64,000 bases of DNA from a bacterium 210917-DFI.7.65. GTDB lineage: Bacteria > Bacillota > Clostridia > Oscillospirales > Oscillospiraceae. The stretch lies in NCBI GenBank assembly GCA_020555865.1, contig JAJCJJ010000001.1:248001-312000 (forward strand), in the 5' to 3' direction. This document shows, one piece after another, positions 41,736-64,000 of this stretch (its first letter is position 1; the number at the start of each line of letters is the position of its first letter). Under the pieces are notes generated by a model. It had not been told where the DNA came from, ran no database searches, and saw only the letters and a program-made list of their open reading frames with translations. Made by a program: the position numbers and the translations under genes.

Positions 41736-41898
41736 ATCATATACCTGTCTTTCTTCTGGTAACCAAAAATAGCACAAAAATGGAACCCCTTTGGCAATAT
41801 CAGCATTATAGCCAGAAATCAAAAAAAATACAAGCCGCATCCTACACAGAATCCGGAAAAAGTTTGTGCGCATCTTTGTTCTTCGTGCAATATTCCTC

Positions 41899-41927
41899 TT
41901 GCATATGCCGTGTCAATGGCATACAAT
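41899..41927 (+). promoter_or_regulatory. folC promoter
   Basis: TTGCAT (41899-41904) and TACAAT (41922-41927) have a 17-base spacer, 35 bases before the folC start. Confidence 0.7.
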
Positions 41928-41961
41928 AGCGGTATCGTTTTTTGCGGAAGGAAGTCATTTC

Positions 41962-43257
41962 ATGACCGGTGAGGAAGCTATTGCCTATATTGAACACATT
42001 CCCTGGCAGGGGGTCCGGCTGGGTCTGGAGCGAACGCGGGAGTTGCTGAAAAAGTTGGGCAACCCCGAAAAGAATCTGCGTTTTGTCCACATTGCCGGCA
42101 CCAACGGCAAGGGGAGCACTGCCGCCATGCTGGCCGCCGTGCTCCAAAGTGCCGGATATCGTACGGGGTTGTATATTTCTCCCTTTTTGCAGGTGTTCAA
42201 CGAGCGTATGAGCGTCAACGGAACGATGATTTCCGGCGAGGAGCTGGGGGAAATCACGGAACAGGTGCGCTTTTCCGCGGAGGCCATGGAAGACCGGCCC
42301 ACAGAGTTTGAGCTGATGACTGCAATTGCGTTCTTGTATTTCCGTCGGCAGCATTGTGACATTGTAGTGCTGGAGGTGGGCATGGGCGGCCGGTTGGATT
42401 CCACCAATGTCATTGGTTCGCCTGAAGCTGCAGTGATCTGCAACATTGGATTGGACCATGTGAAAGAGCTGGGCGGTACTGTGGAACAGATTGCCTTTGA
42501 AAAAGCGGGGATTATCAAGCCGGGCTGCGAAGTGGTGTTGTACCAGCCGGAGAAAGACAGCGTGGCGCAGGTCGTGCGTACTGCTTGCCGGGAACGGAAT
42601 GCCGCGCTGCACGAGGTGGATTTTTCCCAATTGCGGCTTTTGAAGAATTCTATTGAAGGGCAACGGTTTTCCTATCGGCAATGGGAAGATCTGCATATCC
42701 GGCTGCTGGGTTTGCACCAGCTGAAAAACGCAGCGGTGGTGTTGGAAACAGTTGCCGTGCTGCGCGGACGGGGATGGAACATTTCTGACGAGGCAGCGCG
42801 CCGGGGCCTTTCCGAGGCCCGGTGGCCTGGACGGTTTGAAGTGCTGCGTGCCGACGGGCCGGTGTTCCTGGCCGACGGCGGTCATAACCGCCAGTGCGCC
42901 GAAGCAGTGGCGGCGGCGCTGAAAGCATATTTTCCCGGCAAAAACATTCATTTCATTATGGGTGTGCTGGAAGATAAGGATTATGCGTCCATGCTTGCCG
43001 TTTTGGCGCCCTTGGGCGGACGGTTTTATACCGTAACGCCCGACAGTCCCCGCGCGCTCAGCGCGGCGGCGCTGGCACAGGAACTTTCTATTTATGGTAA
43101 ACCGACCGATGTGTGCCAAAGTGCGGCGGAGGCTGTGGCGAAAGCCCTCCGGAGCGCTGGAAAGGACGATGTCGTCTGCTCCGTCGGCTCGCTTTATATG
43201 ACCGGAGAGATCCGGTCGGCCGTGCTCAGCCTGCCTGTACAGGCGGAGCAGGGGTAA
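41962..43257 (+). CDS. folC: Folylpolyglutamate/dihydrofolate synthase
   Basis: 431 residues. The Mur-ligase-like ATP loop is FVHIAGTNGKGST (residue about 40), followed by SPFLQVFNERM, EVGMGGRLDSTNV and LADGGHN near the C-terminal domain. It adds glutamates to folates so they stay in the cell and bind enzymes. GGAAGGAAG lies 7 bases before the ATG at 41962. No terminator separates it from the THF riboswitch and folT, so folate retention and folate uptake may share a transcript. Confidence 0.93.
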   Translation: MTGEEAIAYIEHIPWQGVRLGLERTRELLKKLGNPEKNLRFVHIAGTNGKGSTAAMLAAVLQSAGYRTGLYISPFLQVFNERMSVNGTMISGEELGEITEQVRFSAEAMEDRPTEFELMTAIAFLYFRRQHCDIVVLEVGMGGRLDSTNVIGSPEAAVICNIGLDHVKELGGTVEQIAFEKAGIIKPGCEVVLYQPEKDSVAQVVRTACRERNAALHEVDFSQLRLLKNSIEGQRFSYRQWEDLHIRLLGLHQLKNAAVVLETVAVLRGRGWNISDEAARRGLSEARWPGRFEVLRADGPVFLADGGHNRQCAEAVAAALKAYFPGKNIHFIMGVLEDKDYASMLAVLAPLGGRFYTVTPDSPRALSAAALAQELSIYGKPTDVCQSAAEAVAKALRSAGKDDVVCSVGSLYMTGEIRSAVLSLPVQAEQG

Positions 43258-43459: not shown

Positions 43460-43984
43460 ATGCAATCCAAAAAAATATCATCCCCGCATCTGCAGATCCT
43501 GCTCCGCGTGGCGGTTCTGGCTGCCATGGACGTGCTGCTGATGAATTATCTCGGCATCCACACACAGTATTTTAAAATCGGGTTTTCTTTCGTCCCCATT
43601 GCCCTGTGCGGCATGCTGTACGGCGCCAAATGGAGCACGGCATGCGCGGGAGTGGGCGATTTAATCAACTGCCTGCTCGGCCCGTACGGCTGGTATCCGC
43701 CGCTGACGCTGAGTGCCTGCCTGAACGGCTTTTTGTTCGGCTTTTTCCTCAAAGGGCGCAGTGATCATCTGGGTGCGATCATTGCAGCAGTTGTAACATT
43801 CCAGTTGGGGGTCAGCCTGCTGCTGAACACCTGGTTCCTTTCCCTGTTGTATTCCACACCCTTTTTGGAGTTGATGATCACCCGTGTGCCGCAAGTACTG
43901 CTGATGTTGCCGATTCAGATTATTGTACTGCGCCTGATTGGTTCCAAGCGGCTGGTGACAGCACTGGCCGGCACGGCAGCCTGA
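43460..43984 (+). CDS. folT: ECF transporter folate-binding subunit FolT
   Basis: 174 residues with about six membrane helices (first at 15-32) and the ECF S-component pattern. The stretch FKIGFSFVPIALCGMLYGAKWS and GDLINCLLGPYGWYPPLTLSACLNG match FolT. It binds folate and works with a shared EcfT/EcfA module encoded elsewhere. Control by the THF riboswitch supports the ligand assignment. It ends in a very strong terminator. Confidence 0.93.
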   Translation: MQSKKISSPHLQILLRVAVLAAMDVLLMNYLGIHTQYFKIGFSFVPIALCGMLYGAKWSTACAGVGDLINCLLGPYGWYPPLTLSACLNGFLFGFFLKGRSDHLGAIIAAVVTFQLGVSLLLNTWFLSLLYSTPFLELMITRVPQVLLMLPIQIIVLRLIGSKRLVTALAGTAA

Positions 43985-60755: not shown

Positions 60756-61133
60756 ATGGATATTATTATCAGCAATGCCTCCGGCGTGCCGATTTATGAA
60801 CAGATCGTCCGCCAGATCAAGGGGGCGATTCTGTCCGGTCAGGTGAGCGAGGGTGAAGCGCTGCCATCCATCCGCCTGCTGGCCAGGGATCTGCGCATTT
60901 CCGTCATTACCACAAAGCGGGCTTATGAGGAGCTGGAGCGCAGCGGGTTTGTGACCACTGTGCCGGGCAAGGGCTGCTTTGTGGCCCATCAGGATCAGGA
61001 GACCCGAAAGGAGGCCGTGCTGTGCCGGGTGGAGGAGCATTTGACAAAGGCTGTAGAGGAAGCCCGCGTCGGTGCGGTATCGCTGGCGGAGATGGAAGAA
61101 ATGCTGCAGACACTATACAACGAGGGAGCATAA
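60756..61133 (+). CDS. GntR-family regulator, YtrA type (second)
   Basis: 125 residues. GVPIYEQIVRQIKGAILSGQV, LPSIRLLARDLRISVITTKRAYEELERSGF and the short helical tail mark a YtrA-type regulator. It probably represses its own promoter through the palindromes at 60693-60737. The ABC ATPase gene follows 9 bases later. It is related to the regulator at 51229 but clearly diverged. Confidence 0.9.
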   Translation: MDIIISNASGVPIYEQIVRQIKGAILSGQVSEGEALPSIRLLARDLRISVITTKRAYEELERSGFVTTVPGKGCFVAHQDQETRKEAVLCRVEEHLTKAVEEARVGAVSLAEMEEMLQTLYNEGA

Positions 61134-61142
61134 GGAGTGCTT

Positions 61143-62009
61143 ATGGAACACAATGCAATCGAACTTTCCGGATTGACGAAGCGCTATGCGGATTTCACGC
61201 TGGGCCCTGTCAATCTGACGCTGCCCGGCGGTGCCATTTTGGGCCTGATCGGTGAAAACGGTGCGGGAAAGACTACGTTGATAAAAACCATGCTGGGCGT
61301 GGCCCGGCCGGACGGCGGTACCGTGCGTCTGCTGGGGCGGGAGGCGGAACAGGCCAAAGCAGACATTGGTGTGGTGCTGGAGGACTGCTTTTTCTACGAA
61401 GGGCTGCACCCACGGGATGTGGGCCGAGTGCTCGGCGGTGTGTATCCCACTTGGGACGGGGCGCTGTTTGAGTCGTACCTCAACCAATTCGGCCTGGCAG
61501 ATAAAAAGAGCATCCGGGCACTGTCCCGGGGCATGCGGATGAAACTGTCCCTGGCGGCAGCGCTGGCACACCGCCCGCGGCTCCTGCTGCTGGACGAAGC
61601 CACCGCAGGGCTGGATCCGGTGGTGCGGGATGAAATTCTGGATGAGTTTCTGGCGTTTGCCTGCGACGAGCAGCACAGCATCCTCATCTCCAGCCACATT
61701 ACTTCGGATCTGGAAAAGGCGGCGGACTATATTGCCTATCTCCATCAGGGGAAGCTGCTGCTGTGTGAGGAAAAGGACCGCCTTCTGGAAGAGTATGGAC
61801 GTCTGGCGTGTTCCGAAGCCGAATTGAGCGTGGTCGACGCCTCGTTTCTGGCGGGCGTGCGCCGCGGGAAATTTTCCTGCGAAGCGCTGGTGAAACATCG
61901 GGCGCGCTTTGCCGCGGCCTACCCGCATTTGACTGTGGAGCGCGTCGGGCTGGACGATATTATGGTGTTTATCAACCGGGCGGAAAAAGAGCGGGAGGCG
62001 GAAGCATGA
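61143..62009 (+). CDS. ABC transporter ATP-binding protein (second)
   Basis: 288 residues. Walker A GENGAGKT (about residue 39), signature ALSRGMRMKL near 130, Walker B LLLLDEATAGLDPV near 152 and the switch histidine in ILISSHI. The glutamate after Walker B Asp is present. ATG at 61143 with AAGGAG upstream. Its stop overlaps the permease start (ATGA). Confidence 0.92.
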   Translation: MEHNAIELSGLTKRYADFTLGPVNLTLPGGAILGLIGENGAGKTTLIKTMLGVARPDGGTVRLLGREAEQAKADIGVVLEDCFFYEGLHPRDVGRVLGGVYPTWDGALFESYLNQFGLADKKSIRALSRGMRMKLSLAAALAHRPRLLLLDEATAGLDPVVRDEILDEFLAFACDEQHSILISSHITSDLEKAADYIAYLHQGKLLLCEEKDRLLEEYGRLACSEAELSVVDASFLAGVRRGKFSCEALVKHRARFAAAYPHLTVERVGLDDIMVFINRAEKEREAEA

Positions 62010-62656
62010 TTGGCTTGGTATATAAGGATCTTTTATGCCTGCGCAAAAGCGCGGCCAGCTATCTGTTTGTGGTGGCGATCTACGGGCTGCTGACCGTGGC
62101 CGGGGTTTGGGACGGCACGATTTTGTCCACCGTTCTGGCGGTGCTGATCAGCATGCTGCCCTACAGCTGTTTTTCCTATGACAATATAGCGAAATGGGAG
62201 TTGTACGGCCTGTCCCTGCCCCTGCGGCGCAGCCGGATCGTGCTGGCGCGGTATCTCACCGTGCTGCTGGCGCTGGCGTTTTCTGCGGTGCTGTGTGGTT
62301 TATTTGGGGCAGCGCTGGCGGCGTTGGGCCAGATGGAGGACTGGGGTCTGTATCTCAGCAGCGCCATCGGCGCGCTGGGCTTCAGCGTGTTGCTCAATGC
62401 GATTTTGCTTCCTCTGCTGTACCGTTTTGGCGCCGAGCGGGCGCGCATCCTCTTTTTCGGCGTGCTCGGTGCGATTGTGGCCATCGGCTTTACGGTACTG
62501 AGCCTCGTCGATGTGACGGGTTGGTTGGACGGCATCGAACATGTGCAATGGAAAGGGATGCTCCCGGTGGCGGGGGTTGCCGCGATTGCTGCGGCGGTTG
62601 TGCTGCTGCTTTCCTATGTTCTTTCGGTACGGATTTACCAAAAGCGGGAACTGTGA
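62006..62656 (+). CDS. ABC-2 type permease
   Basis: 216 residues, six membrane helices (first at about 18-36). It begins MIGLVYKDLLCLRKSAASY, the usual start of small ABC-2 permeases paired with YtrA-type regulators. It is much smaller than the permease of the first operon and lacks an extracytoplasmic domain. Translationally coupled to its ATPase. Substrate unknown; defence against envelope-active compounds is plausible. Confidence 0.85.
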   Translation: MIGLVYKDLLCLRKSAASYLFVVAIYGLLTVAGVWDGTILSTVLAVLISMLPYSCFSYDNIAKWELYGLSLPLRRSRIVLARYLTVLLALAFSAVLCGLFGAALAALGQMEDWGLYLSSAIGALGFSVLLNAILLPLLYRFGAERARILFFGVLGAIVAIGFTVLSLVDVTGWLDGIEHVQWKGMLPVAGVAAIAAAVVLLLSYVLSVRIYQKREL

Positions 62657-62715
62657 AAAACAGGCGGCCTTTTCAGGAAAAGGCCTGCTGCGGCAGATTG
62701 GAATGGAAAAAAGAA

Positions 62716-62751
62716 GCGGGTGGACGGTATTGTACCGTCCACCCGCTTTTT
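62716..62751 (+). terminator. Intrinsic terminator after the second GntR-ABC operon
   Basis: A perfect 14-bp stem (62716-62729 with 62733-62746) followed by TTTTT. Confidence 0.9.
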
Positions 62752-62859
62752 GCCTGGATGCAGAATCTGCCGGCGCCGTGGTTTTTCAGCACGCGGGCGC
62801 TGGAGGCGGCGGTGCCGGGCGTTTTTTGTTTGTGCACTCTTACTGGCAAAAAGGGTGCA
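62752..62859. other. Structured spacer, no gene
   Basis: Between the operon terminator and the T-box-like element. On the + strand a GC-rich imperfect stem ends in GTTTTTTG near 62821-62828. On the minus strand a weak hairpin follows the T-box terminator (about 62831-62858). No start codon with ribosome-binding site was found on either strand. Confidence 0.4.
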
Positions 62860-63130
62860 AGAAAAGACAGCATTCATCCCAATTTAGGACGAATAGCTGT
62901 CATACCCGCGGTGCTGCCGAATTTACCTGCGCGCCATTGCGCAGGCCACCCTTCGTGCTCATTTCTGCCAATGTTGCCCCTTTCACGTCGGGCGGACGGC
63001 GTCCCTGCCCAGACCGGGCGGACCGTTCAGGTTACGGGGGTGTTCCCATGCGCACCGGCGCAGAGCTTCCGTCTTACCCTTGCTCTCTGAGGCCGCCGGT
63101 CCATCGTACTTTTCTCGGATCGTTGCTTTT
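62860..63130 (-). ncRNA. T-box leader, interrupted and without a downstream gene
   Basis: Read on the minus strand: AGTA at 63110-63107; a Stem I base GGACCG/CGGTCC (63102-63097 with 63025-63020); AGAGAG (63088-63083); GGGTGGC (62951-62945); ACCGCGG (62912-62906); then TTCGTCC and a terminator stem (62901-62887 with 62880-62866) with TTTT. GGGTGGC plus ACCGCGG is exactly the T-box, but 32 bases (62913-62944) separate the halves. No coding region follows on this strand. Confidence 0.55.
62913..62944 (-). repeat. 32-base segment splitting the T-box
   Basis: The segment, with one flanking base, contains a perfect 7-bp hairpin CCTGCGC/GCGCAGG (62926-62932 with 62939-62945). Removing it restores an uninterrupted consensus T-box. 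It may be a small inserted repeat or a natural extension of the antiterminator. Confidence 0.5.
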
Positions 63131-63235
63131 GTGAGTCTGATTGCAGTACAAAAGCCTTTTCACACTCCCTTGCGCATGGGCTGAAATTCAAATTTTTGCG
63201 GCCGGGATAAGCAGCTGTTCCGATGGGGCGGCCGC
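63131..63235 (-). other. Spacer upstream of the T-box element
   Basis: Holds two interleaved stems just after the sigma-54 regulator's stop: GGATAAGC/GCTTATCC and GCGGCCG/CGGCCGC (about 63195-63242), followed by a T-poor run. They may end the regulator transcript. No convincing promoter for the T-box was seen here. Confidence 0.4.
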
Positions 63236-64000
63236 TTATCCTTCGCCGCTACGGATTCGATATTTCTGGAGTTTGCGCACAATGGTGGGCTGGCTGGTGT
63301 GCAGTGCGTCGGCCAGCTGCTGGGTGGTTCGGTAATAGCGGGAGTAATCCAGCAGGATTTCCCGCTCTTTTTCCTCAAGCATCTGTTTCAGGGAGGTGGG
63401 GCGCCGGGGCTGCTGCTGTGCGCCGCCGGTATGCGGCGCGGCGGCCGTGCGCCGCGAAACGCAGGTGAAGGTGTGGAGGATGTCTGAGGATTTGATCTCG
63501 TCGAAGGTTGTGTTGATCATGGCATGCTGAATGATATTCTGCAGTTCGCGCACGTTGCCCTGCAATGGCTGGACGGAAAGCAGGTTCAGCGCTGCGGGGC
63601 TGATGCTTTTGTGCAGGCCGAATTCCTGATTGTATTTTTGAATAAAGAAGTTGGTCAGCGGGATGATATCCTCCTGCCGCTTGCGCAGCGGATCAATCAG
63701 CACGGGGAATACATTGAGACGGTAGTACAAATCTTCGCGGAACAAATGCTGATGGACCATGTCCTCGAGATTACGGTTGGTGGCGGCGATAATGCGTACA
63801 TCAACTTTGACGGGTACGGTGCCGCCCACACGGGTGATCTCTTTTTCCTGAATGGCGCGCAGCAGCTTTGCCTGGAAAGCAAGGGGCAGTTCGCCCACTT
63901 CGTCGAGAAACAGTGTGCCATTTTGGGCTGTTTCCCACAGGCCGGTTTTGCCTTTTGTGCTGGCGCCGGTGAAGGATCCTTTTTCGTAGCCGAACAGCTC
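63236..64000 (-). CDS. Sigma-54-dependent transcriptional activator (5' end beyond window)
   Basis: The last 254 residues are visible. The AAA+ domain shows ELFGYEKGSFTGA (sigma-54 contact loop, with S where most relatives have A), Walker B GTLFLDEVGELP, RIIAATNRNLEDMV and the arginine-finger segment FREDLYYRLNVFPV. The C-terminal Fis-type helix-turn-helix is TTQQLADALHTSQPTIVRKLQKYRI. The sensor domain lies outside the window, so the signal and target genes are unknown. Confidence 0.9.
   Translation of the reverse strand, partial: ELFGYEKGSFTGASTKGKTGLWETAQNGTLFLDEVGELPLAFQAKLLRAIQEKEITRVGGTVPVKVDVRIIAATNRNLEDMVHQHLFREDLYYRLNVFPVLIDPLRKRQEDIIPLTNFFIQKYNQEFGLHKSISPAALNLLSVQPLQGNVRELQNIIQHAMINTTFDEIKSSDILHTFTCVSRRTAAAPHTGGAQQQPRRPTSLKQMLEEKEREILLDYSRYYRTTQQLADALHTSQPTIVRKLQKYRIRSGEG

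Follow-up and report, generated by a model that had tools for sequence, protein, structure and literature searches.

Probable remains of a tRNA-Asn-responsive T-box leader beside a remnant of asnB in a member of the Oscillospiraceae

As described in parts of two accounts of the T-box discriminator domain (PMC7583486, PMC7778990), Stem III is preceded by a purine string and followed by adenines (5'-RRRxG-Stem III-AA-3'), the antiterminator comes next, and UGGN lies at the 5' edge of its 7-base bulge. A literature search on orphan, remnant or decaying T-boxes returned no title on the subject, a result that concerns titles only and does not prove absence. The window, i.e. the whole stretch of 64,000 nucleotides analysed here, carries on its minus strand a T-box leader that is degenerate and is followed by no intact gene on that strand; the first-pass annotation of this DNA had already stated that no aminoacyl-tRNA synthetase or transporter gene follows. 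We consider it, at a probability of roughly 0.93, to be a pseudo-leader: the remains of the tRNA-Asn-responsive T-box of an asparagine synthetase gene, asnB, left after deletion of that gene in place and acting at most as a terminator. The suggestion made earlier that a decaying leader has lost its gene is borne out, as the intact homologues stand before asnB genes and a piece from the 3' end of asnB persists just downstream in the window. The significance is modest; we are dealing with a small genomic fossil and not with a new mechanism.

The leader and its homologues in related genomes

62857-63132, minus strand: degenerate T-box leader with Stem I, Stem II region, Stem III and antiterminator/terminator, recognised by RF00230 and by homology to asnB leaders

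All landmark letters listed for this element in the first-pass annotation are in place, namely AGTA (63110-63107, minus strand), AGAGAG (63088-63083, minus strand), GGGTGGC, ACCGCGG, TTCGTCC before the terminator stem and the terminator stem itself with its T's. The proposed check of the native minus strand with RF00230 did yield a match (62882-63132, 30.8 bits, E 4.8e-5 in 601 bases searched), but one that remains below the gathering score of 93, and an Rfam scan of the whole window at the gathering threshold missed the leader and reported only a THF riboswitch. The latter (RF01831, 43276-43377, plus strand, 92.6 bits) lies, by reading, between an ORF resembling folylpolyglutamate synthase (41866-43257) and one resembling the S component of a folate ECF transporter (43460-43984). 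For the T-box the gathering score is a weak criterion, because the asnB leaders of two relatives, G146 and G069, themselves score 86.5 and 85.4 bits. It is reached by five of twelve RF00230 matches in genome G001 and by nine of 32 in G146, G203 and G069, with 43.1 and 57.8 bits as the lowest scores listed for the two sets. Folded as a single sequence, the whole leader is unexceptional (z -1.87; 10 of 200 shuffles fold equally well or better).

Related genomes were searched with the products of the two genes flanking the locus:

63236-64000, minus strand: C-terminal part of a sigma-54-dependent regulator, upstream neighbour, running off the window
62009-62656, plus strand: convergent ABC-2 permease (PF13346), downstream neighbour, which links the locus to contig C53 of G146

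The regulator retrieved 32 loci from genome contigs, the best being 57% identical, and led to an Oscillospiraceae MAG (L001, 57% identical), whose family was sampled evenly by 400 genomes from a larger group. No recognisable synteny partner for the leader was present among the 32 regulator loci; an Rfam scan of six of them revealed T-boxes at one, about 9 kb from the regulator. The permease found no match in the genome contigs, and its best matches in the 400-genome family lie in G146, G203 and G069 (52, 49 and 49% identity). These are the three genomes compared here; they belong to one genus, the nearest found, and their ProC proteins share 76% (G146), 74% (G069) and 72% (G203) identity with that of the window.

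When eight genomes were searched with the DNA of the leader, one clear match each was obtained in G146 (75%, E 7e-52) and G069 (72%, E 3e-32); G203 and five further genomes gave no clear match, the next best being at E 0.017. Both homologous stretches are T-boxes by RF00230, with the scores given above, and both adjoin asnB, lying directly upstream of it. They contain the same hairpin and loop as the window leader, an intact AGGTGGC-ACCGCGG behind it, and AAC after the S-turn GAA. The AsnB protein of G069 passes the cut-offs of NF006949 (583.7 bits, cut-off 499) and TIGR01536. The asnB gene of G203 (73% identity) sits in a different setting without a T-box match, so the T-box-asnB arrangement is not universal. 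The comparison with related genomes that had been asked for revealed a leader with an uninterrupted T-box before asnB in G146 and G069 and the loss of asnB in the window.

tRNA-Asn has a G discriminator, and the UGGC of the homologous leaders fits the GCCA end expected of this tRNA. Applying the established T-box mechanism, we infer for the relatives that RNA polymerase would start at a TTGACA/TACAAT promoter, that uncharged tRNA-Asn would pair through its anticodon with the AAC specifier and through its 3' GCCA end with UGGC in the bulge, and that the antiterminator would be stabilised in this way, with transcription of asnB whenever asparagine is short.

Stem III and the T-box sequence

62947-62951, minus strand: GGGTG, purine string of the RRRxG type in front of Stem III (covariance alignment, homologues, published motif)
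62925-62946, minus strand: Stem III hairpin GCCTGCGC-AATGGC-GCGCAGGT, eight pairs including one G-U
62913-62916, minus strand: CAGC, a decayed form of the TGGC with which the T-box bulge of the homologues would bind the tRNA acceptor end
62906-62912, minus strand: ACCGCGG, retained 3' part of the T-box bulge and 5' strand of helix A2

GGGTGGC (62951-62945) and ACCGCGG (62912-62906) had been taken for the two halves of a single T-box sequence, parted by 32 bases (62944-62913). The spacing was confirmed by reading; the assignment of the two motifs as halves had to be given up. In the covariance alignment GGGTGG falls on an AAGUGG-like stretch preceding the hairpin before the antiterminator, the hairpin of the window falls on that hairpin and TTCGGCAGCACCGCGG on the T-box proper, and the two homologues, too, place Stem III between GGGTGG and the T-box. 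The 32 bases therefore take in Stem III for the most part, together with the AA flank behind it, and then run through the 5' strand of helix A1 to the four bases of the UGGN site. That GGGTGGC and ACCGCGG, when joined, resemble the consensus is a coincidence; both motifs, the one before Stem III and that of the T-box, contain GGTGG. Stem III is present in the window with its flanks (GGGUG, hairpin 62946-62925, UAA), and all seven of its model pairs are formed in the rows of the window, G146 and G069 alike. At one of its pairs C-G of the homologues has changed to T-A on both sides with pairing kept.

The origin of the segment as a small repeat insertion, also proposed at first, does not hold, the hairpin being Stem III and occupying the same place in both homologous leaders; an inserted hairpin or mobile repeat is ruled out by these two leaders and the covariance alignment. 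Hardly any credence is due to a functional variant T-box whose T-box sequence would be interrupted by an inserted 32-base hairpin. Such an element could be imagined from the way GGGTGGC and ACCGCGG border the segment, but the homologues and the covariance alignment identify the hairpin as Stem III with an uninterrupted T-box behind it, and no gene remains to be regulated. The case serves as a warning that RRRxG before Stem III can pass for the first half of the T-box and a normal Stem III for an insertion.

TGGN is present in every one of the 42 T-boxes read from G001, G146, G203 and G069 (42 of 44 matches), whereas the window has CAGC instead. A new class of T-box with a hairpin in the bulge was rejected on account of this conservation. 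In 34 of the rows read the sequence is TGGNACC and in the remaining eight TGGN is followed by another trinucleotide. At L035, L074, L075, L079, L070 and L071 this is TGGT with ATC or AAC in place of ACC. The eight of 42 lacking ACC in the bulge also include L095 (1501-1724, minus strand, contig C17 of G146; 65.1 bits) and L097 (1501-1722, plus strand, contig C32 of G203; 58.3 bits), where AGA or CAA seems to close the bulge and the specifier is AUC. The next ORF at L095 resembles, by reading, the gamma subunit of a 2-oxoacid:ferredoxin oxidoreductase; the element would be an Ile T-box ahead of an operon of this kind.

The remnant of asnB and the decay of the leader

62766-62809, minus strand: 44 bases, about 14 codons, left from the 3' end of asnB, without start or stop (blastn)

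The remnant lies some 50 bases past the terminator of the leader, on the same strand and in the order to be expected, between the leader and the convergent permease. It matches the 3' end of asnB from G069 with 84% over all 44 bases (blastn, E 2.4e-6) and asnB from G146 with 90% over 30 bases (E 1.1e-4). Its local alignment scores, 53 for G069 and 45 for G146, compare with maxima of 30 and 31 among 500 shuffles each. Residues 516-525 at the C-terminus of the G069 AsnB protein match 62804-62775 (minus strand), and tblastn with the complete protein detected no asnB gene in the window (best E 1.8).

In G146 asnB is split over two contigs that both end inside the gene, with 53 codons missing between the parts. 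The 5' part, encoding residues 3-198, lies next to the T-box on C27; on C53, three small ORFs separate the 3' part (residues 252-529) from the convergent permease, so that the adjacency of T-box and permease in this genome is deduced from two parts of one gene. Two small ORFs between asnB and the permease on C53 (L110, 2087-2744) resemble, by reading, an AbrB-like antitoxin and a PIN-domain toxin and are absent from the window. The window permease faces the remnant, in agreement with the initial observation that the RNA points at the 3' end of a convergent ABC operon. This operon (60756-62656, plus strand) encodes a GntR regulator, an ABC ATPase and the ABC-2 permease; the regulator is closest to NCBIfam PmtR (134.8 bits, below the cut-off of 200) and the ATPase to NCBIfam PmtA (210.4 bits, below the cut-off of 350).

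As the 3' remnant is in order and the convergent permease faces it as in G146, asnB was most likely deleted in place. From these arrangements we infer the following order of events: almost all of asnB would have been removed in the window lineage, with the leader and some 14 codons from the 3' end staying behind, and the leader would afterwards have decayed and lost its activity, through loss of the promoter, conversion of UGGC to CAGC and disruption of Stem I. The upstream neighbour, on the other hand, is a D-Ala-D-Ala carboxypeptidase in G146 and G069 and the sigma-54 regulator in the window, for which neither genome has a match at E 1e-20. Some rearrangement must therefore have occurred, and G203 carries asnB in yet another setting. 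Both points would accord with the leader and a scrap of asnB having been copied or moved to this site while asnB persists elsewhere with a T-box of its own. We judge such a relocation improbable, as the proper order of the 3' remnant and the common convergent permease fit deletion in place. The locus also suggests that the window lineage has lost a T-box-controlled asparagine synthetase.

The marks of decay begin upstream of the leader:

63164-63169, minus strand: GGGAGT at the site where the -35 box used to lie, TTGACA in both homologues (alignment)
63140-63145, minus strand: TGCAAT in the former -10 box, TACAAT in both homologues (alignment)
63042-63044, minus strand: former specifier codon AAC (Asn), still readable (alignments)

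A promoter scan found TTGACA-18-TACAAT in both homologues (11 of 12 positions, extended TG) and no promoter-like site in window positions 62600-63300. The surroundings of the specifier read GGGAAAGAACACCCCGGGAGC in G146 and CATGGGAACACCC plus a 6-base gap in the window. The S-turn GAA before AAC is altered and the six bases after AAC, on the side of the K-turn, are altered or missing (S-turn and K-turn assigned by reading). Of Stem I, AGTA and AAC are kept. The window forms 33 of 46 model pairs (10 mismatched, 3 gapped) and each homologue 42, a count that leans towards the homologues because the model was drawn from the G146 alignment. Most broken pairs fall into Stem I, where nine of 21 are formed, three gapped and nine mismatched in the window and only two or three are mismatched in the homologues. 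The window may be a metagenome record, but an assembly error joining a T-box leader to the wrong sequence is very improbable, since it would not produce the substitutions by which promoter, TGGC and numerous pairs of Stem I were lost.

At gap-free sites of the leader 53 changes are private to the window, five to G146 and 17 to G069; the corresponding counts for proC are 91, 68 and 57, a difference with Fisher p 2.7e-5, or p 1.0e-5 when the leader is compared with the third codon positions of proC. Judged by these counts, the window leader evolved faster than the neighbouring gene proC. At the same time the leaders of window and G146 are still 73-75% identical, which, together with the two-sided change in Stem III and the intact terminator, indicates that decay is incomplete or in part younger than the split of the species. 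The locus offers an example, dated by comparison, of riboswitch decay after gene deletion, in which promoter and ligand-contact bases go and local hairpins stay.

The terminator and comparison with known T-boxes

62859-62901, minus strand: intrinsic terminator, intact, with hairpin 62901-62866 and T-run (fold; terminator scan 62895-62871)

The terminator folds with -20.6 kcal/mol in the window and with -18.9 kcal/mol in both homologues. It differs from that of G146 at four positions and the stem stays the more stable one; among random versions of the G146 stem with four substitutions, 32 of 5000 reach the energy of the window. These statistics hint at a terminator that has been kept, though some of the constraint would predate the loss of the gene. 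By its sequence it still has the look of a working terminator, which may passively stop transcripts coming from the sigma-54 regulator. The scan that reported it is no measure of function, as this simple procedure missed the T-box terminators of the homologues. In the window, eight of nine antiterminator pairs and the whole terminator stem are able to form, but without UGGN no tRNA would be expected to stabilise the antiterminator.

It is conceivable, and of all alternatives the one we would least readily dismiss, that the leader owes its retention to a terminator that, without any need for tRNA, now stops transcripts of the sigma-54 regulator or keeps read-through out of the convergent ABC operon. 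Terminator and Stem III are the best kept parts of the leader, and few random versions attain the stability found. This comparison, however, comprises three sequences, other terminator-like sites lie near (62748-62714 and others in the terminator scan), and some of the divergence arose before gene loss, at a time when the terminator was in any case under selection. Exaptation is therefore unlikely in our view, and slightly more doubtful still is the general notion that a T-box leader can outlive its gene as a tRNA-independent terminator for the upstream gene, its sensing part decaying and its terminator being kept or improved. The earlier idea of a role outside cis regulation for this RNA retains the intact terminator in its favour and has gained no other positive evidence. 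We adhere to the reading as a pseudo-leader.

Despite its descent from a T-box, the window RNA is not counted as a working member of this class, as it lacks UGGN and the Stem I features and is followed by a 44-base piece of asnB in place of an amino-acid gene. In its discriminator domain, GGGUG, the 8-bp hairpin and UAA match RRRxG-Stem III-AA without difference, as far as that layout is given in the portions of PMC7583486 and PMC7778990 considered. The closest known systems are the Asn-type T-boxes of asnB in G146 (L108, L081) and G069 (L109, L083), with which the window leader has in common the order of elements, the loop of Stem III, ACCGCGG, the terminator and AAC. Unlike them it has CAGC where they have UGGC, lacks a promoter match, scores 30.8 instead of 85-86 bits, and has broken pairs in Stem I and no gene to control.
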